Part shown: positions 10,369 to 29,419 of the stretch, piece after piece
Position numbering within the stretch: position 1 is the stretch's first letter
Layout: every line of letters begins with the position of its first letter
Made by a program: the position numbers and the translations under genes
The notes under the pieces: model-generated
Databases searched by the model: none
Seen by the model: the letters and a program-made list of their open reading frames with translations, nothing else
Told to the model about the DNA's origin: nothing
Source: Hysterangium stoloniferum
Lineage: Eukaryota > Basidiomycota > Agaricomycetes > Hysterangiales > Hysterangiaceae
NCBI GenBank assembly: GCA_015178975.1
Contig: WHVD01000010.1
Location: 682,001 to 746,000, forward strand
Length of the DNA: 64,000 nucleotides
Direction of reading: 5' to 3'

Positions 10369-12790
10369 TCAAACCACACCTGTCTGCCGCAGTTGTTGTT
10401 GATACAAAATATACCGTTTCATCAATTCGACACTAATTGGTCCCATTGCCAACTCTGGCGTAATTTTAACTGAGTCATCCCAACCTAAAGCAGCCCTAGA
10501 TGTAGGTGTGGTACGAGCGCTAAAGAAATCGATGAGCCTAACGGCAGGGACTTCCTGGGGATCGAGCTTCGTCCCCTTGATGTAGTCCAGCCATGTCGCA
10601 AACGGGACCAAACGTAACGGTTTCGGTGAAGTAACCGAGAGTGCCTCAATAACCACATTCCAGGGGGTAAGGAACGGATTTTCTACTGAAAAATAATGCA
10701 GATTAGTTTTGTCGCAGAAGGCTTGCTTAATCAATGCGGATGCTCCAACATCACACGGTATCCATCGGGCGGGCTATAACAAAGGAAGATAAATAATTAG
10801 GGGCATTCTTTATTCAACAACTCACGGGAGAATCGTTCGGAGCTAGTCCCAATGCAAGAATAGAGCGTAACATTATCGGAATATATTCGTTCTTTGCCCA
10901 TGCACCACTTACGGTGTGACCACTAAGCTGGCCAACACGTGAAATCGTAGCTCGCAGACCTACATGGACAGCATTGCAGATGATGCGCTCGCTGATGTAT
11001 TTGCTTTGGCTATATCCATGTTCAAGAATAATGCTAGGATCATCCAGAGGGGATTCTGGAACGAGCACCTGTTCAAGATGATCGCCAATTGTTTGAGGTT
11101 GAGACGGTCCCTTATAATGTACGACAGCCCCAATACTTGAAAGGAAAACCAATCGGGGTGGCTTTTCCTGAGGGGAAGACAATGCCAGTTCAATGAGATG
11201 CCTCACGCCCGCAATATGTACTCGTTCAAAACTGTCCAGTCCCAAATTAAAGCTGACGTGCCAGGCTGCGTGTATGATGTGCGTTATACTATCTCTGAGC
11301 TGTATACGCTTCTTGAGTGTATTTATCAGGCTTATAGATAGATAGTGCCTACATCACAGTAAACAGGTCGAGGCAACCCTAGGCCGGATTGCGAAAAGTC
11401 AACCTCGAGGTATACAATTTGTGTATCTGTCGAGTCTAGCTTCGCAGTATCCAATCCCCTCGCACGAAAGCTTCGGATTTGTCTATCTTTGAGGGTTTCC
11501 TTGCCTTGTCTCAAAAGGAGATAAATACGTTTTACGTCGGCCCTCCCGAGCAATTGGAAGAGAATCGAGCTACCAGCGCTGCCGGTCGAACCACTAAGTG
11601 CGATAATCTTACCATCGACAGTGTGTGAGCCGGATTTATGCGGCCTCAGATCCTCGGAATATTTCGAAATCAAGGTACGAATACGATCGTGAGCAGGCGG
11701 CGTCAGATGAAGTTCCGTACAAGCTACCGTTGGTTTCAAACAGGTCGCCCAGCGCCCCGCCAAACAAGGTGGCAAATGCTTATGCCAACGTTTCATATAA
11801 TGATCCAGATAATCATCATGGTCTAGGGACTGCGCGAGTTTCTCGTATAGTCGTATGGTGCCTTGCTCTGGCACAACAAATCCGCTGAAAGGGATTGCCA
11901 AGGCAGGCGCCAGACTTGAATGGTTGACTAGAACGTAATTAGGACATTCTTGAGTTGCATCAGCGGAATTGGGCAACGATGTAGGATCGGTCTGCGGAGG
12001 CATCGCGATCGCGTGCATGACGTCACTTGTATCACGAAGAAGGTATATGTCCATATTTTCTATAAGCGCCATTATGAAGTGTACATTCAGATTAACAATT
12101 GAGCCTACCTGGTTCTATATGTTGAACATTCTATCTCAGAGTCGTCGAATCAGTATCTGTGCAGTTATACGTATGGCAGACACACCGAGCTAATACCTCC
12201 AGATTCCGTTTGGGCGGAGGCACACCACCCCTGGCCATCTATCGGTAAAGACGTTTCTACGACCAAGACCTGACAATCTTCTATAGCAGCGGGCTTGGCG
12301 CGTCCACAGCGACTTTTCATCCTAATCTTCGCACGGATATCAGCACAGTAAATTTGAGGTCTAGAGTCCTTTGATAAATCGTTCAACTCTGCAAACTAAG
12401 CCTCGCTTATTGACCAACTATATACAATAGGATCACTCTACTTACTTTGAGGAAATCGACTAGACCGGGACCGCAGTCTTTTGCGCTTGGTATTTGCATG
12501 ATCATTGTTGGCTTGCACACGGTATTTGAATTCAGCCAAGAAACCAAGCTCGGAATATCATGCGTATTGGCGACGTGATGCTCTGGCCGGAACTCAATCC
12601 CTCCTGGCAATTCAAAATAGTAAAGATCCTTATCTTGTATGGTTATCACAATAGAGGATAATATAAAATCATCTCGTGTTCGAAGAACGTGGAAGGCGGG
12701 ATCATTGCCCATGTGAGAGGTATTGGTAGATGTGTCTGTAGTATGAATGGTCTTAACATTTGAGATGGAATTGGGATTCCATGCGGACAT
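10369..12790 (-). CDS. thioester-reductase-like NAD(P)-dependent enzyme
   Basis: The C-terminal half is an extended SDR / NAD_binding_4 (Male-sterility, thioester reductase) domain of the kind that releases acyl chains from carrier proteins as aldehydes or alcohols. Visible features on the minus strand: the nucleotide-binding loop SGSTGSAGSS (~11570), LVFLSSIGAVV carrying the catalytic Ser (~11140), and GYSQSKYISER with the Tyr and Lys of YxxxK (~11010). The C-terminal block with SVENPFLTPWNVV runs down to the stop at 10369. Exons are roughly 12790-12430, a middle region around 12390-12190, 12072-11340, 11245-10820 and 10734-10369. The N-terminal ~300 residues, from MSAWNPNS at 12790, are unlike an adenylation domain, and no phosphopantetheine-type serine motif was seen. 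It could be a free-standing reductase, the truncated end of an NRPS-like or PKS enzyme, or a longer gene with an unseen start. The reductase identity is firm; the substrate is unknown. Confidence 0.75.
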
Positions 12791-14070: not shown

Positions 14071-15584
14071 TCAAAAAGACTGTTCGGCCAAAACCTCGCT
14101 GACTTTCACAACAATTTCGTATTTGCTCCTTATTTCCGCAGCAAAATAAGCCTTGAGGCCACCGACGCCTTTCGCTTTGACCACTTGAACCAGGGAAGTC
14201 CATGCATTGCCATTATCAATTCGTCGAAATTGGCAGACAAAGTCCCGCTTTTTGGTGTAAACAAGACAATCACCCATCTGTTCTGCAGCAGCTTGTTGCT
14301 TCGGAGACGCATCAAATCCAGCGAACGGTATCTGGACCTTTATGACAACTTGCTTAGGGTATTCGTGCTTCGATGGCGCTTTACCCCCAGAACTGGATGT
14401 TTTTCCCTTGGTCTGATCATATCCCATCGCGCTTCGCACTACTGACGAGGTAGATATGATGTCGACTCCAGGGACGTAAAACGGTTTTAATTTGAGACTG
14501 CTCTCTTCGTTAAATGGATGACAATTAGGTTTATGCACTGGCCAATGGGCTCCTAGAGTTATCCGTTAGTATTTTCCCGTCAAATAAGTGTGGCAACGAC
14601 GTACGTTGACATGTTCTGCTGCAATAGCGCGCAGCCCTGCATCGAGAACAGAGGTGGAGGGTAGTCTTGGATGTTTCTTTACATCCATCACAACATTTAT
14701 TCTCTCGTGGGGCAGGCCCAGCACCGCTCCGTTTGCGTTTCCATTTTTCTAACACGGCGCTAACCTGAGGACCAGCTTGTAATGAGAAAACACTAGGCTT
14801 GACCCCATCCGCATCTTTAATCTCGGGATCTGCCCCATATTCCATCAATAGTTCAATGCTATCAATGGTTCCCGATAGACATGAATTTAGCAGAGCTGTG
14901 CAACCATACTTATAAATTTAAAAATGCATTACTAAGTTAACAAGAACCACGCACTAACTAATAACCAACGTACCTTGTTCCGGTGATTTGGATCTGCGCC
15001 AGCTTTAAGAAGAATCGAAGCGAGTGGTTGAATCAGACCCAATATCGTTGCGTGTTGTAATGCAGTATGCCAAGTGATATCAACCGCGTCCACAGGAGCG
15101 CCGTGCGTAATCAGAAATTGGGCTACTTTTCCATGTTCTTGTGGTAAGGTTGCACCAAAGACCATCCGTTTACCAAGAACAACAATAATCAAATAACCTT
15201 GAAGGTGTGGTGTTTCATGACCACAAATGTCAGGAGCGGTTCCAGACTCGACCATCTACAGACAATATTAATTCACATTCGGACAAAAAAACGCAAACGA
15301 GCCTTTTTGACTTCATCATACAGACCCAAGAAACAAGCCAATCCAAAGTCACTCAAAAGACTAGGTTCATACGCAGCACTTCCTGCGAGAAAGATATTCC
15401 AGATTAACATATACTTGGCAAGGTGGACAAACTAACCATCGACATATAAATCCCTCAATTCCTGAGATCCATTTTCAAGGGACAAGTAACCTGGCTTTTC
15501 AGATAGTTCACGAAATCTTGAACTGACAACAAGACCAGGACCTGTAGGAGGATGCTGTTGCCTAAACCATTGGAAAATAGACAT
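14071..15584 (-). CDS. ankyrin repeat and MYND zinc-finger protein
   Basis: Multi-exon minus-strand gene of about 380 residues, probably a cytoplasmic or nuclear adaptor. The start is ATG at 15584 (MSIFQWFRQQHPP). Exon 1 ends at 15437 before GTTAGT. Ankyrin-type repeats follow, including EVKK joined to MVESGTAPDICG, VAQFLITHGAPVDAVD, LASILLKAGADPNHRNK and IELLMEYGADPEIKDADG. A MYND finger comes next: CCDGC, CSRCRAARYCSRTCQ, then after an intron (14553-14604, GTACGT...CTAG) HWPVHKPNC, giving the full Cys/His set. The C-terminal domain (~14500-14071, ending VSEVLAEQSF) is conserved in fungal members. One intron, 15256-15302, has a GC-AG boundary. The gene looks intact. MYND fingers bind proline-rich partners; the partner here is unknown. 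Confidence 0.85.
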
Positions 15585-15794: not shown

Positions 15795-18522
15795 TTAAAT
15801 CACACCGTCGCTCCTCGTGGCACACTGGCCAAAATTCAATTTAGTCAATCCCTCAGGTTTAGGCAAAATGTCCTGCATAGTCTCATCGTTTAAACCAGAA
15901 ATTGGTATGAAAAATTGTCACTTACGTGTTCGAAAATTCCGAGGGGGAGAGCCAAAGTAACACAAGCGTTGGGCGAATCCTGGAACACAGAGAAATAATT
16001 CAGCAACCCTCACATGAAAGGTACAACTATGTATACCACTACGGCACCGACGTGGCTTTCCACAGGAGCGGCGGACAGGAGGAGGTCTAAAACCACATTG
16101 AGGTTGGAAAATCAGCAAAAAGGATTAATTACGCACATGCTTGTTCACGGGCTTTTTGGATATGTAATAACTAACATGAACAATAATGATCTCAGAAACA
16201 CTCACTATATCCGATCTATGAAATGACACTTGTGAGTAACTATACGAATGTCAATCTCACAATCACTCACCTTCTGTAGATATGCAATGGCGTTCAAGGC
16301 AGCCTGCTTATAGGCTACTGTACTTCACAGATGGCCGAATTTTAGTCATCGCCGTGCTATGATACTTACTATGAACTCACGCATCCATGTTGTATTGAGT
16401 TCCGTCTCCATCTGTAAAAAGCAGACAAATTGTTTAGTCAAAGCAAGAGTAATAGCAGTCTTGAACGAACGATAATCGACACTAATGCCCTCGAAAACAA
16501 GCTATTTGAAAACGATTGCAGTCGTGTAGATGAGAATTTCTTAATTGAACTGGCCTTGGCAGAGTACATAGGATCAATAGGAGAAGGCTGTGATGTGTTG
16601 TTAGCTCGTTGTCATCTTTGTGATTGTGTGCCTACCAAGAAAATAGGTTGTTTGAGGGCGAATTTTTCAACGCCTCCCTTAATAATGCTAGTCTTAAAGG
16701 TTATAATTCCAGCCTATGTAATAGCAAGTGTAAATATAATCTGAATTGGCTGCAAAAAAGGAGAATACCCAACCATCTCAATAGCACCACAAAATGACAG
16801 CTGACAGAGACCATCGATATGAGAAGGCTGGCACATTGAGGGTGGCGTCATACCTCTCCCTATAATACCTGGATGTCATTATCATTTTTCAAAATAATAG
16901 TATTGAGAACGTACATCTCCCTGAGAAAAGTGCAGATCTCCTACAGAAAGGTTGGCACCCTTGACGAAAACCGGGAAATAGCATCGAGAACCCCTTGAGG
17001 GAAGTCATAAAATCATTGAACAAGTCAGAGAGTATCGAAGATACCTAGAAAGGTTCTTTATCTAATGCCATGGAAGGTTCATTACCATGTAATGCGTCAG
17101 ATAGGCCCTATAGTTATAATCCAACTTACATCACAGTTTCCTCCATGTTCCCTGCCAGGAATCGTCCTTGCTCCTTCCTGAGCAACTTTCTCTTTGATGT
17201 CAGCCGGTAGGTCTTGGCCAACATAACTCCCAACTGGCTCGGGTGCGAATGCGACAGGCGGGACGGCGTTAACGTGCTGGGCAATCAGGCCGCGTTCACG
17301 CTTGTTCCAAGTATCAAGCAACTCTTGTGAAGGTGCCGTACCGCTGTATGGAAAATAAAGTTCATTCCTTACTCAACATATTTAAATGTCACAAGAGGAG
17401 AAATGAGCCTACATCAATCCAGGGTGCGAAACACCTGCAAATCGGACACCTGGAATATGTCGCGAGGTTGCATAAATGCCTGTGCAGTGGCGTCAGAAAT
17501 ATTTGGTACGACGCAAATATTGTCTTGACCTTCAAAGTCCCAGATGGCCTTGCATGCCTTGCTATTAAATTCACGAGCTGCATGCTATGTCGGCGATATT
17601 ACTGAAATAAAATTATTTTATCACTCACCGAAGAGACCTCCACCGTTATTCAACTCAAAGATACCCTATATTATACTATAAATATATGAAGTCCAAATAA
17701 ACCATTGCCTCACTGACAGTATAACCCCACGGCATCTGTTCGAACGGCGTGACTGAAGAAAACTGAGCATAGTTGTTTATTAGCAATAATCCTTGATTTA
17801 CCATCCAAAATGTCTACGACGAGACAATCGCCTGGCTCCGCGCCTTCCACAGCAACAGGTCCGCTCAAATTGTGAACTTTAGTCAGATCTACATTCTTGA
17901 CATCATCACTGGCTATGTTCAAGATATATGGCTTAGACACCGCTACGAGAACAGTGGCTAGTGACGTACTATCGTTGTTTCCGATTTGAGCACCAGTCCA
18001 GTCTAGAAATATCAAGTAACTACTTGGGTTAAAGGAATTCCACGTACCAACGCATTCAATTTTGAATACCTGGGCAAAAAGAATTAATTCAAAGCTGAAA
18101 ATAGATATGGTATCAGGTTATTCTCACCTCTCCCGGTTTGACGGTTGCGAAGGGGGGGATGTCCGGACTAGATTCGATGGTCAATCATTAAGACTAACAA
18201 TACGTTTACCTGTAATGCTTACTGCCAGCGATTATGGAGACCCTATTAAGTAGTCCATTTGAATTTTCACACGCATGGGCAACACATGATGATAACGAAC
18301 TTACTTTCTGTTGGTCCGCAGGGCTGTGCGTATAGGTATATAAGGCTTTCAAGTATGCAATAATCCTAGAAGAAAAAGTTACTTACAGGAAAGGGTCAAC
18401 CTGTCAGCACACAATCAGGAAAGTGAATACAGTCGTTAGGAGTATGCTTGGCTGATTGAACTTGGATCCCCGCATACCTTGATAAGAGTGGGGTGAGGGA
18501 CTGAGTTCTCCCTAGTGGCCAT
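15795..18522 (-). CDS. formamidase (FmdA/AmdA family), about 27 exons
   Basis: Hydrolyses formamide to formate and ammonia (EC 3.5.1.49), a soluble nitrogen-scavenging enzyme. Reading the minus strand from ATG at 18522 (MATRENSVPHPTLIK) through conventional short introns gives a complete protein of about 400 residues. Family blocks in order are LHNRWH-PDIP, FATVKPGE, IECVDWTGAQIGNND, DVKNVDLTKVHNLSGP, VEGAEPGDCLVVDI, AIWDFEGIYATSRHIPGVR, HPGLIGTAPS, ARTIPGREHGGNCD, NLSRGSR, VKGANLSVGDLHFSQGD, FCGAIEM, IIKGGVEKF, PSPIDPMYS, VAYKQAALNAIAYLQK, LLLSAAPVE and PNACVTLALPLGIFEH. It ends at a stop (15795-15797) after GQCATRSDGVI. The exon reading is mine and needs about 26 introns, including exons of 6 nt (16854-16859), 10 nt (16206-16215), 14 nt (18387-18400), 15 nt (16137-16151), 17 nt (17045-17061), 19 nt (18305-18323) and 20 nt (18223-18242). 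Intron 16502-16554 is GC-AG. Every block is in frame once these are used, so the gene looks intact. Confidence 0.92.
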
Positions 18523-19895
18523 AACGACTAAGTGATCCAATTCACAATCAAAAAGGAAAAAGAAAACACTGTCAGTGTGGTGCTGGTAAAAGTCAAAGCT
18601 ACAACTCGGCTGTAACTGACACCTAGCGGCTTATCAGGGAACAAGATCTGTCTGGATCTGTGTTAGCAATGACTGTGAGATAATTTGGGAGCCGGCAAGC
18701 GGCTTGTTTGTTTTACCCATGACGCTGAGATAAGCGATTGACTGCATACATGTGTAGTCACACGAGCGGTCGCCGACTCGGAAATTTAGCCAACTTAAAA
18801 GTTCGTTTAGATTCCAGGTGGAATTCTCCGTAAAATAAGTCAAATAGGACTTGGAAAGCAAATGGTGTATACACATTTCAACCAAGTTATTGACAGGACG
18901 CAAAGAAGGGGAAACGAAGCTAATAATATCTTATTATCGCCTCTCATTCACATGACTTTGTACCTGCTTGGAATATTCCACCCAAGATTTTTCTTGGTCA
19001 TTCTCTCCCGCATGTTATAGAACCCACTAAATTCAAGAACCTTCGTCCGTAAAAAAAACAGTATCTTAAGACCTCTCAAGGATGTTAGGTCCTATGGTAA
19101 TGCATGCGATGTGTATCATCAATATCCAGTAGCTCATAGTCTTGTGATTTAACCATAGGCTCATATAATTATTAATTGCACATGATGAGGTGAACACATG
19201 ATTAGCATTATAAGATAATTAATGTTGGACACTGGTGACATTAATACTAGCCAAATGCCGGGAGCCAAAGAATACTATATGAATGCCGATTGAGGAAAAT
19301 GGTCTATGAGCTTTCAAAGACGAAGACAAATAAGAAAATAAATTGAAGCTTATAGTGTTAACAGCTTCAAGCCCTCAAAGTCATCCCCCTACCCATTGCT
19401 CATATTCTTGATCTACAGGACGGAGATTGGACGTGCATCAATAGCCCTACTCGTGCCTAACACGGGAAAGGCGGCAAGAAAGTGCAATGAAGACGACCAG
19501 TACACAATCCTGAAGTCAGGTTTACAGAATAGACTGCCAGACAAGTGCGCTTGCAAGGATCCTGAATACCACGTAGAATGAACAGAGGCTACTTATATGC
19601 CTGTGTCCAATGTTCTATAACTTCATGGGGTTCGAATTCGGTAAGGTGAACTTTGGAAGCCCTTTCACGAGTACCTGTCTATGTGGTACATAAGACGGGG
19701 TGTAGAATTTTCCCCTAGTTTTGGTTTGGTTTGTCTTACAGCTTACAGGCGCCTGTTGACACCTTCCATTCTTCCTAGCTTTGCACGGACACCGGCAAGA
19801 TCATTCACAAACGACGGGAAAAGGAATATCTCAATATCAACAAAGGATCCAAATCACAGAAATTATCATATCAGTGAAAATAATAGCATACCCAA
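18523..19895. other. intergenic, no recognised gene
   Basis: This holds the promoter side of the formamidase gene and the 3' flank of the BRCT-protein gene. Open frames here (18634-18903 minus, 19396-19581 plus) are short and lack family motifs. GGTTCGAATTC near 19628 resembles a tRNA B box but no cloverleaf can be folded around it. Confidence 0.5.
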
Positions 19896-22800
19896 CTACC
19901 TCCCCGCAGTACGAGTGGCACGCCGCACCAATTTTCTCTTTGACGCCGTGTCTTGATGCTTTGCGCCACGGCATTCGCCTTCTTTCTTTAGGCCGCTACC
20001 GCCATCAATTAGAGGATCTTCGTTAGGGTTAACCTTCTTTTCAAACAGGGCATCAAGCCTCTTCTTCTCGGCCCTCTGGTCTGGGTCTTCGTAAATCACC
20101 CTTAAACTTGATGCTCCTTCTTCCATACATACTTCGCCTTTTCCATGAGGCGAAGCATATGACAATGGTGAGGAAGTCGTTATTAAAGATAACGAAGGGG
20201 AAACCGCGTGACCAAGTTCCAAATCAGTCTAAAAAGCGGAGATGATTATAAGATTAGAAAAAAGGTTCATGAGAGCTTGTAGCTTCTAATTGACGTACAT
20301 TTACTCGTACTGGAGGCCGATGTCTTTTACTACTTCGGTTGGAGTGCCTTTGAGTAGATCCGTCGTCTTCTCTGGCATCTGTCCCTCTTTTACCTAATAA
20401 TGCCGTGATTGCAGTGCGCAGTCCTCGAGTTTCACCAATAGGTGGTGAGGCGACAGAAGGTGGCTTGCTGAGTATCTTGAGAGGAGAGGGCGACTGGGAT
20501 GAGGGGATTACAATGTCTTGTTCAGTACCAGTTGTAGAGGCTCGCGTAGGTGTTCGGGATGTATGTGAGGATGAGGGCACAGACCCCAAGTCCACCCTTG
20601 CTTTGTGGATTTCAGTGTGGTCATCGGAGAGAAGAGCGACGGGCTTTCCGAACGCAGAAGGCGCATTCCCATCCGTATCAGTCAGAGTATGGTAAGATGA
20701 CGGCTCATAAACTAGTGGCTTAGATGGAGAAGCCTCGGCCGCGAGGGGCCGGGGCTTCATGTCCTTTGTTAATTGCTTTATGTGGAGGGGAACGGCAACG
20801 CCAGCAGTTAGAGACTCCTGAGAATGACCTGTCGAATGGTTATATCAGCTAGAATTAGCGGAATTATTAAGAGCTATGTCTACCATTTGTTATGTCAGTC
20901 ATTTTCCCGTCTTTGTCCTCAGTTATGTCGGCCCGTCCTTTGCCTTTGATATCTACACTCCGTTCACCATTGTCACCATCAACGTCGACACGATCATTGC
21001 TATCCTGTACGACCTCGAAATCTCCGGCGTCTGGTATTGTACCGGTGTTCGCGATGGCAAACAGCCAATCCAGATTCACGACCCTCACGTTCCATTCTCT
21101 TGCCTTATCGTACTTGGCACCACGGCCTGACGGACACACTAAATGTGTAGAACGGCGAGAAAAGGCAGACGGAAAGTTGGCACCTGCAATAGCGTAAGTT
21201 TAGACATACAACGTGATAAATGAAAAGAAGTCTCTAGAGATTCCATCAGTCTTCGCGCGCAGCACCCATCGGAGCGCCAGACCGGAACACGCATGAAATG
21301 ATCTTCGAATACTTCAGCAGCTTACCTATCGCTCGAATGAGACGTTTCGTCCAACACGTCTCAGCAGAATCTAGACCTGATAGACTGACATATAGGCCCT
21401 CCGACCCTGACGGTGCTTGTTAATGTCCTTACCATGTAGGTTTCTGCAATATGAGCGCACCTTCTACTGGGGTGATGATTTTGAGTGGTGTGAAGGTGAC
21501 ATGTTCATCACCAGCACACACCCTCTCTTCGAAGATACACCGTTCGATCCAACACTCAGTGCGATACTTACTTCGTTCCCTTTCCTCCAGTTCCTCACGC
21601 CAGAACAATCCCCCGCTATTCTATGTCAGAAAAATATTTCAGGGCTGCCGTTCAACATACCTGGCCAGTCGTACAAGAAGAAAATCTGCCTCTGTTTCGT
21701 CACCGTTGTCTTCAAGCCACGCGCCTCCGTGCTGTTCAACAGCAGTGCGCAAAGTAGGCCCGATTGCTTCTCCAAAGGCACGAAAGGTGTAACCCGTGAA
21801 TAGCATACGGGACTCACTTGAAATTGTGGAACTAGAGGCTGTACTTATGAAAGATGCCTGCGGTGCCAATGTCACGGTGGAAGACGTTGATATGACACGT
21901 CGGAACGGTTGTCGCAAATCTGACGGGCCACAGGTGGCAGGGGCAAACGATGCAGCACGGTGATTTGCCAGGCGAGTCAATAGTGACCCAGAATCAGCAT
22001 TTGCCTTCGTTTTTTGGAATTCGGATGACGCCCTTGGCCTTGTATTTAAGATAGGGTTTGCTGGCCGCGGTTGATCAGGTCCATTATCCATTTTCAATTT
22101 CTCCTGTTGTGTAGTAGCGTCTGTCTCTAGACATTTTCGCTTCTGCACAATACTTGCCAGGATGCGGAGCCCGACATCTCGTTGTTTCTGCGTTTGACCG
22201 TATTCTGGAGCATCATCAGCAAGAAGAGAAGCAGTAGGTATAGATTTAGGTAACGGTGGTTGTGAGAAGGATGATGATGGTAAAGGCCTCGTGTCATCTT
22301 TCAACGCCTGAAGTGCTAAGAAGGTTTAGTGAGATCGGTTGATATCTTCAATGGGTTTATAGCGTACTTCGAGGAATGGATTTTCGCGCTGATCGCTGGT
22401 TGGTGATATCATAACTGGTTTCGTCCCACCTCCCTGTGCATTGATGAAAAGATAGAAAGGGAGGTAAATGAAGCGTCGTTGACACACCTCCGAACTCAAG
22501 GGAATCCCAAAACCATTCCTCCCAAACCATTTGAATTTTCCTGGATTTAAATTTCTGGTTATACTCCTTGCTCCATTGGATTTTATCGCTACTGTTTGAT
22601 GCACAGCAGAGTAAATGTGTTACGGATGTATCCAAAGACTTCATATACACGCCGCCTTCTTGTATTAGTAAGACTTGCATCTTGCTCCGCATACCGACAT
22701 TATCCATCCCTGTTAGACAAAGCTTGACCCCTGTAAAGATGGGAAGTCTGTGGTCTGCAATGCTCTGAAACTGCTGTAAGTTTTTTTCTGAAAAAGTAAA

Positions 22801-23384
22801 AGGATTAAAATAAGGTTACCTGTCCAAGCTCGACTACACCGCCATTTAGCCATGTGTTATACGCCTCTTGTACCCACGTTTCTTTCAATATCGGCAAATT
22901 TCGCTCTACCGCGCACTTCACAAGGTGTGAGTGGGATTAATATCCATTAAACGAGCTAACAAGTTACAAACCCTGTATTTTGCACTTCCTGGACCATCAG
23001 CTACAAGATGCGTGACTTGGTCCGTGAAATCATTGGTTCTAATTGCACCGAGTTCCTGCGCCTGCGCAAACAGTACTCGCTGCATGGGGATATCAGTTGG
23101 TACTCAGCCAAGATTAGATAAAACACACTTTGTCCAACTCTCCTGTAGCACAAAGTACCACACCAGAAAACGGCTTATTCCCATTGGTAAGATCGAACTC
23201 GTCTTCATTCTCGTCACTATCAACGTCGACGCGTGGTAAACTTGCTTCCCTTTGCGTAGAACGTGAACTTGAGGCTTGTGCAGGTCGTAAAATAACATTG
23301 GGAACCTACATCGCGTCAACGCTATGTTATGCGGAGAAAACATAACAGTACCTTGACAGCGCCACGTCGTTTGGAGTTCTTCAT
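19896..23384 (-). CDS. Dpb11/Rad4(Cut5)/TopBP1-like multi-BRCT protein
   Basis: Nuclear scaffold that in yeasts and animals bridges phosphorylated replication-initiation and checkpoint proteins. On the minus strand the start ATG is at 23384 (MKNSKRRGAVK, then an intron). BRCT 1 has FSGVVLCATGELDK spliced to LFAQAQELGAI and VTHLVADGPGSAKY (23180-22960). BRCT 2 has LPIFTGVKLCLTGMDN, SVTHLLCCAS and VWEEWFWDSLEFGG (22760-22490). A Ser/Thr/Pro-rich linker follows. BRCT 3 has MLFTGYTFRAFGEAIGP and YRTECWIERCIFEE (21815-21500). BRCT 4 has VSLSGLDSAETCWTKR, HLVCPSGRGAKYDK and VVNLDWLFAIANTG (21390-21030). The disordered C-terminal tail carries RVIYEDPDQRAEKKRL (~20100) and a basic end, stopping at 19896. 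The order of four BRCT domains, two pairs separated by a linker, matches Dpb11/Rad4. The gene appears intact with several short introns. Identification is by motif reading; the orthologue name is inferred. Confidence 0.88.
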
Positions 23385-28342: not shown

Positions 28343-28487
28343 TGTACTTGAACCAGTGACAATCCAGTAGTAAAAGAGCTGGCTAAAACCTGTCATGAGT
28401 TTCAATGAAGACATCTTGCCAGCCATGCTTACTTGTCACTTTCTGTCTGAATGAAGTAAGCAATTTGAGCAGAGGTGCATGACATAG
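28343..28487 (-). repeat. interspersed repeat R1, copy 1
   Basis: Its reverse complement (containing AAGATGTCTTCATTGAAACT and TTAGCCAGCTC) matches 29841-30035 and 43631-43965 on the plus strand. It is cut on the right by the solo LTR starting at 28488. The nature of the family is unknown. Confidence 0.65.
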
Positions 28488-29419
28488 TGTTATGACCGGA
28501 AAACCTGCTGGACCTTGGAACCCATCCTATATGCACCCGACTCTCTATATGCACCCGACTCTCTATATGCACCCGACTCTCTATATGCACCTGACTCTCT
28601 ATATGCACCCGACTTTCTATATACACCTGACTCTCTGTATGCACCAAGTTTCAGTTACCGGAAAACCCCCCGGGACCTGGACCTCACACTTGTCTTTGCT
28701 CGACTCTCTGTGTCTCAAGTATCAGTCATCAGAACACCCACCAGGCCCCGCACACTTGTCAAACTCTTTACATCCAACTCTGCCCCACGCACCAGTCACT
28801 GGATTCCACCCAGACAATCTGTCAGCCCTCTATCTCAGCCCTGTTCCTGTTATAGTCTTATGACCTGTCATGTTTCTTTCTCTGCTCCATTCCATTCCAT
28901 CCCTAACACCAGGATTGGTGTTTATTTATCCCATTTCGTGATTTCCCATTTAGTCTCTCATTATTACTGGATTAGGTATGACATAGATTCCAAAGTCTAT
29001 ATAGTACAGATATATTTGTACATATATACAATGTGGTCAGAAAATCAACTAGGATTCCCCCAGTTAATTGACCTTCTAAATCTGCTCTATCCTACCTCTC
29101 TCTTCATTGTAAACACTTCATCATCACCATCTCAGGGCCCATGGGCCATCCCGACTCAGCACCTGACCTATCGCCCTCCATGGACTCTCCAACCCGACTC
29201 AACAACTTGACTCAACAATTTGACTGTTCAACTACTCAACCTCTCAACCAACCTGGACTCCTCAGGTCTGTCTGTCCGTCTGAAATTGGACACTGCAACC
29301 TGCAAGGGTACAGCCTATAAGCTGAAGCCAAGTCCTACCAGCATCTGTGGGTTTCTCTGGAAACCTTGTCTATAGGCCTCACGACTCAGTCTTACTCAGC
29401 CCTGTAACAGTCCCTAACA
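28488..29419 (+). mobile_element. Ty3-type solo LTR with CATAG target duplication
   Basis: Begins TGTTATGACCGG and ends CCCTAACA, 932 bp, flanked by the same five bases CATAG at 28483-28487 and 29420-29424. It aligns with the solo LTR at 58861-61286 (shared GCACCCGAC-type start, CCAAGTCCTACC near the end). No internal region is attached, so it is a solo LTR. A long open frame through it is an accident of the tandem repeat at its start. Confidence 0.9.
28533..28645 (+). repeat. 18-bp tandem repeat within the solo LTR
   Basis: About six head-to-tail units of TATATGCACCCGACTCTC with small changes. The unit length is a multiple of three, which is why a spurious open frame repeating YAPDSL runs through it. 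The related LTR at 58861 has only one such unit, so the array expanded in this copy. Confidence 0.85.

Follow-up and report, generated by a model that had tools for sequence, protein, structure and literature searches.

A locus of 2728 nt in the window, by which we mean the whole 64,000-nucleotide stretch of Hysterangium stoloniferum DNA analysed here, very probably holds an intact and likely functional FmdA-type formamidase gene broken up by 26 ordinary short spliceosomal introns, a density that most likely arose through repeated intron gain. Formamidases convert formamide to formate and ammonia, and those of the FmdA type occur in bacteria and fungi.

Spliced alignment to a bacterial profile placed the gene on the minus strand, from an ATG at 18522-18520 to a stop codon ending at 15795, and divided it into 27 exons and 26 introns with a CDS of 1266 nt and a product of 421 amino acids. 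Exons measure 6-214 nt (median 35), and seven are 20 nt or shorter (6, 10, 14, 15, 17, 19 and 20 nt); nine of the 25 internal exons are at most 30 nt, all nine being no longer than 27 nt and needed for the conserved product. The introns (45-77 nt, mean 56) make up 1462 of the 2728 nt, occur about once per 49 coding bases and fall into phases 0, 1 and 2 in 13, 8 and 5 cases, respectively. Left unspliced, the locus reaches a best profile score of 112. A first-pass annotation of this DNA had proposed about 27 exons and 26 introns, microexons of exactly these seven sizes, a complete Met-to-stop product and conserved FmdA blocks in order and in frame; the profile alignment reproduced each of these features, with no frameshift needed. 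The exons, in transcript order, are as follows:

18478..18522, minus strand: exon 1, 45 nt, with the ATG at its start, encoding amino acids 1-15; the start was picked by frame and the N-terminus is weakly conserved
18387..18400, minus strand: exon 2, 14-nt microexon (VDPFL), weaker, dropping out at intron penalty -22
18305..18323, minus strand: exon 3, 19-nt microexon, weaker, dropping out at intron penalty -22
18223..18242, minus strand: exon 4, 20-nt microexon (GLHNRWH), matching 5 of 5 columns that are at least 95% conserved; the intron on its 5' side drops out at -22
18128..18167, minus strand: exon 5, 40 nt
18048..18069, minus strand: exon 6, 22 nt
17970..18002, minus strand: exon 7, 33 nt
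17802..17912, minus strand: exon 8, 111 nt
17718..17752, minus strand: exon 9, 35 nt
17629..17665, minus strand: exon 10, 37 nt
17530..17577, minus strand: exon 11, 48 nt
17413..17479, minus strand: exon 12, 67 nt
17130..17343, minus strand: exon 13, the longest, 214 nt
17045..17061, minus strand: exon 14, 17-nt microexon (IKNLSR), 6 of 6 residues equal to the bacterial consensus
16915..16993, minus strand: exon 15, 79 nt
16854..16859, minus strand: exon 16, 6-nt microexon GGAGAG, encoding the Gly-Glu (amino acids 268-269) of the GDGE motif
16774..16800, minus strand: exon 17 (LSFCGAIEM), 27 nt
16636..16713, minus strand: exon 18, 78 nt
16555..16587, minus strand: exon 19, 33 nt
16471..16501, minus strand: exon 20, 31 nt
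16381..16411, minus strand: exon 21, 31 nt, its first 6 nt uncertain (tandem acceptor CAG ATG GAG)
16271..16322, minus strand: exon 22, 52 nt
16206..16215, minus strand: exon 23, 10-nt microexon (IGYT), placed by profile alignment
16137..16151, minus strand: exon 24, 15-nt microexon (TREQAY), with codons split at both ends
16037..16086, minus strand: exon 25, 50 nt
15926..15979, minus strand: exon 26, 54 nt
15795..15872, minus strand: exon 27, 78 nt, including the stop codon

The profile behind this model comprised 80 bacterial FmdA proteins and contained no fungal sequence, though a hand-read draft of the protein had served to find the relatives: scanning a prokaryote genome collection with that draft returned at least 581 stretches encoding a relative, of which the best 80 were kept, picked by an in-frame HGGN.D motif. 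Alignment was by dynamic programming on the minus strand, with introns allowed in all three phases and with untrained splice weights set by hand from the fungal consensus. We adopted a working intron penalty of -18, the level at which shuffled sequences yield about one intron on average, because a lenient run over-extended both ends of the gene and called some 70 meaningless introns at a second PF03069 locus, on either strand.

The resulting structure was stable across a range of settings. All 26 introns, with zero extras, were returned at penalties of -14 and -18, the score at -18 being 684 bits against at most 24 in 20 dinucleotide shuffles, and three profiles of 4 random bacterial sequences each also called 26 introns at -18. 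With the splice-motif weights removed, so that any GT/GC..AG could serve, the alignment called 22 introns, and 20 of these coincided exactly with members of the set of 26. At the most lenient penalty of -9 the locus scored 927 with 30 introns, compared with at most 157 in 40 shuffles, 129 on the opposite strand and at most 162 in 36 combinations of tile and strand from the rest of the window; the four additional introns lay outside the ATG-to-stop interval, vanished at all four stricter settings and were discarded. Base composition, which carries no protein information, separates exons (49% GC) from introns (37% GC), a contrast matched by none of 10000 layouts in which the segment lengths were permuted and by 6 of 2727 circular shifts. 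The locus has the reading frame, exon order, splice-signal pattern and family membership of a formamidase gene.

The three introns nearest the 5' end are the weakest-supported part of the model. It is possible, if somewhat doubtful, that the gene is real and that a few of its junctions differ, in the 5' exons or at the 6-nt tandem acceptor of exon 21, or that a few introns are alternatively spliced, for a total of about 23-26 introns; this reading overlaps with the one we prefer. At penalties of -22 and -26, 23 of the 26 introns were kept with zero extras, and the three lost were the 5'-most. Two residues at exon 21 are uncertain because its acceptor is the tandem CAG ATG GAG, and, judged by eye, the downstream acceptor (6 nt on) lets the product align to the bacterial consensus with no gap; several donors elsewhere in the gene are weak. 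On the other side stand the complete set of 26 introns at both -14 and -18, the same count from the three small profiles, and the N-terminal part, which on its own scored above every one of 200 shuffled versions of the 298-nt upstream stretch, by a thin margin (69.2 bits against at most 66.8).

The splice signals themselves are largely conventional. Donors are GT in 25 introns and GC in one, with G at position +5 in 22 of the 26, and 23 acceptors are CAG or TAG, the other three being AAG. Counted anywhere in the intron, as raw numbers with no chance baseline, the branch-point-like motif CTNAY appears in 13 of the 26, and either CTNAY or YTRA in 23; the three introns with neither motif are those at 17717, 17628 and 16773. 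Five introns stand out for their donors or for their effect on the frame:

18003..18047, minus strand: intron 6, 45 nt, frame stays open if retained
17913..17969, minus strand: intron 7, 57 nt, frame stays open if retained
17480..17529, minus strand: intron 11, 50 nt, weak donor GTCAAG
16714..16773, minus strand: intron 17, 60 nt, weak donor GTTGGG
16502..16554, minus strand: intron 19, 53 nt, the sole GC-AG intron, weak donor GCCAGT (C at +3)

Retention would shift the frame for 16 introns, add a stop for eight and keep the frame for two, so that 24 of the 26 are harmful to reading if left in place. Skipping would preserve the frame for nine of the 25 internal exons, the 6-nt exon among them. 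We predict that all 26 introns are removed from the transcript. They would be recognised as units, because the two ends of each lie near one another, about 56 nt apart, whereas exons can be as short as 6 nt, and they would be taken out one by one. Tiny exons such as that encoding Gly-Glu may persist because the conserved motif needs these two residues.

The first-pass assignment to the FmdA family was also confirmed. Against the NCBIfam formamidase equivalog NF045496 the spliced product scored 592.6 bits (cut-off 500; profile positions 3-395 of 407), and against PF03069 it scored 556.7 bits over positions 9-372 of 373, a full-length domain; the hand-read draft matched a solved relative, 2wkn FORMAMIDASE, at E 1.4e-142. 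Identity to the 80 bacterial relatives reaches 61% at best, with a median of about 57%. Among the 170 columns that are at least 95% conserved in the bacteria, 148 agree and 22 differ. Both residues encoded by the 6-nt exon are at least 95% conserved in the 80 bacteria, and alignments place the GDGE motif also in more distant acetamidases of known structure, 2ii1 and 3tkk. The gene is probably intact and its predicted product probably functional.

Alternatively, the gene could be a silenced or decaying copy, its poor splice sites already blocking a functional message, which would account for the three weak donors, one of them a GC with C at +3. We regard this as very unlikely: the 421-residue frame is complete without a frameshift, conserved columns are kept to the extent just described, the sole other PF03069 locus among the best-scoring candidates searched belongs to another branch, and a second DNA copy was absent among the best-scoring genome candidates. 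That other PF03069 gene, of an acetamidase-like branch, lies at C323:482854-483432 as a 240-residue open stretch and is apparently far less interrupted. In the block around GGN..GDGE, a six-frame reading by eye showed no intron position shared between it and the gene in the window.

To set the intron density in context, we modelled other genes of the same assembly (111 Mb, 554 contigs) against exact matched bacterial frames without stops, using 2-7 bacterial sequences per profile. Eight control families were searched and six genes modelled, leaving out atpD, gnd and two of three ilvD loci. Per kb of aligned coding length, the controls at -18 carried 5.9 introns (urease), 8.0 (ahcY), 6.4 (eno), 5.3 (gcvP), 7.4 (pyrG) and 5.5 (ilvD, C72); their range, 5.3-8.0 at this penalty, became 5.3-7.4 when the penalty was -22 and 4.6-7.4 when it was -26. 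The formamidase gene has 20.5 introns per kb of full CDS, or 22.0 at -18 and 20.4 at -26 on aligned coding length, and is cut roughly three times as finely as the six controls. In the controls, 5 of 58 internal exons measure at most 30 nt, against the 9 of 25 given above. The first-pass description of this layout as one of the densest holds against six genes of this genome (20.5 versus 5.3-8.0 per kb), with the reservation that close precedents are in print.

Two further observations came from the control search. The urease gene (C46) contains a 9-nt internal exon, and very short exons may extend beyond the formamidase in this genome. Three separate ilvD-like loci (C72, C93 and C301) were each matched exon by exon.

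The density itself would most likely reflect introns gained again and again in a fungal genome that is rich in them, perhaps, by analogy with a basidiomycete amylase, after arrival of the gene from bacteria. We consider a stronger version of this history unlikely, namely that a bacterial formamidase gene entered a fungal lineage and then gained introns in a burst that left the usual density of the genome far behind and stopped at a spacing of one per 49 coding bases. Under it, that spacing would be near the point beyond which splicing errors become too costly, and the gene would show the extent to which a single gene can accumulate introns. A bacterial origin of the fungal gene is only a possibility and a weak point of this account; formamidases are reported, in the portions of the literature available, also from ascomycetes and plants.

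Copying of one intron family many times into the gene, as introner-like elements, is highly improbable, even though the introns are uniform in length (45-77 nt, mean 56). Published introner-like elements are described, in the available text of PMC4457414, as near-identical copies. The introns here match one another over only 10-16 nt at E 0.1, and a search of the gene DNA against the 111-Mb genome, which skips very common words, found only the gene itself. Because the introns share so little and the gene DNA matches itself alone, recent introner-like copying is not supported, and recent introner insertion is disfavoured. We rejected bacterial contamination because the gene is crowded with introns of spliceosomal type, sits in a 1.5-Mb contig and shares its intron-bearing character with the control genes of the genome.

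In Aspergillus nidulans, fmdS is described as being under nitrogen control by AreA through GATA sites (PMC9608497, PMC10781810), and AreA control of formamidase is also named in PMC2219887, all three as far as their accessible text goes. The interval upstream of the gene in the window is:

18523..19022, minus strand: 500 bp upstream of the gene, containing 4 HGATAR motifs that could be GATA-factor sites

This putative GATA-site cluster is suggestive only, a mere hint, because 6.8% of the window's 500-bp tiles hold as many HGATAR motifs.

The surrounding window contains pieces of several other genes. Downstream of the formamidase, its neighbour on the minus strand (14531-15255) shows ankyrin-repeat and MYND-finger pieces; further along the same strand, long open frames at 10814-12114 carry NAD_binding_4 pieces (Pfam 'male sterility protein') of a reductase-like gene. 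A gene upstream, also on the minus strand (20867-22815), has BRCT and twin-BRCT pieces, and an open frame on the plus strand at 28483-28863 contains a short tandem peptide repeat, YMHPTL.

The formamidase gene offers a compact stress test for short-intron splicing: by simple arithmetic, a failure rate of 1% per intron leaves 77% whole messages, versus 94% for a six-intron gene. Automatic annotation is likely to miss or break such genes, and reports of formamidase from similar fungi may therefore be too few. Comparing intron positions among relatives would tell an old density from a recent burst.

Several published systems resemble this gene in part. The closest is a bacterial alpha-amylase gene acquired by Agaricomycotina, for which the accessible part of PMC3584928 gives 8-22 introns per gene against genome averages of 3.8-5.7, intron lengths with a mean of 61.6 and a median of 56 nt, and a few GC donors; its authors suggest that introns were gained rapidly in a host already rich in them. 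Like the amylase, the formamidase is an enzyme gene packed with short introns (mean 56 nt) and includes a GC donor. Unlike the amylase, with its maximum of 22 introns and its bacterial acquisition, the formamidase has 26 introns in a 1266-nt CDS, and an acquisition of that kind is only a possibility (PMC3584928, same portion).

Small exons, too, have counterparts among fungal P450s. Phanerochaete chrysosporium P450 genes are described, in the text available of PMC1184071, as having exons as short as 6 bp and many introns in the 45-55 bp range, and the P450foxy genes as carrying 17-22 introns. The formamidase shares with them a basidiomycete setting, a 6-nt exon and short, frequent introns, and differs in its enzyme family and in fitting seven exons no longer than 20 nt into one short gene. 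In Fusarium, CYP621A contains a transcript-backed one-nucleotide exon that lies in a conserved motif and tends to escape automatic annotation, and its authors suggest that introns landing in conserved motifs may favour microexons (PMC12940212, from the accessible sections). The Gly-Glu exon likewise sits inside a conserved motif, as that suggestion would have it; unlike the transcript-backed CYP621A exon, it is 6 nt long and predicted. A 2024 statement, as worded in the available excerpt, held functional microexons to be previously undescribed in filamentous fungi (PMC11121469). Our literature search, over partly accessible sources, found no intron map of any basidiomycete formamidase, PMC2219887 treating the regulation of formamidase rather than its introns in the text available.

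Relative to bacterial FmdA formamidases, finally, the window gene belongs to the same family (NF045496, PF03069) and differs in architecture, with 27 exons in place of their single open frames. The formamidase is an ordinary enzyme whose gene structure is extreme but has precedent, and it extends a known pattern rather than representing a new kind of system.
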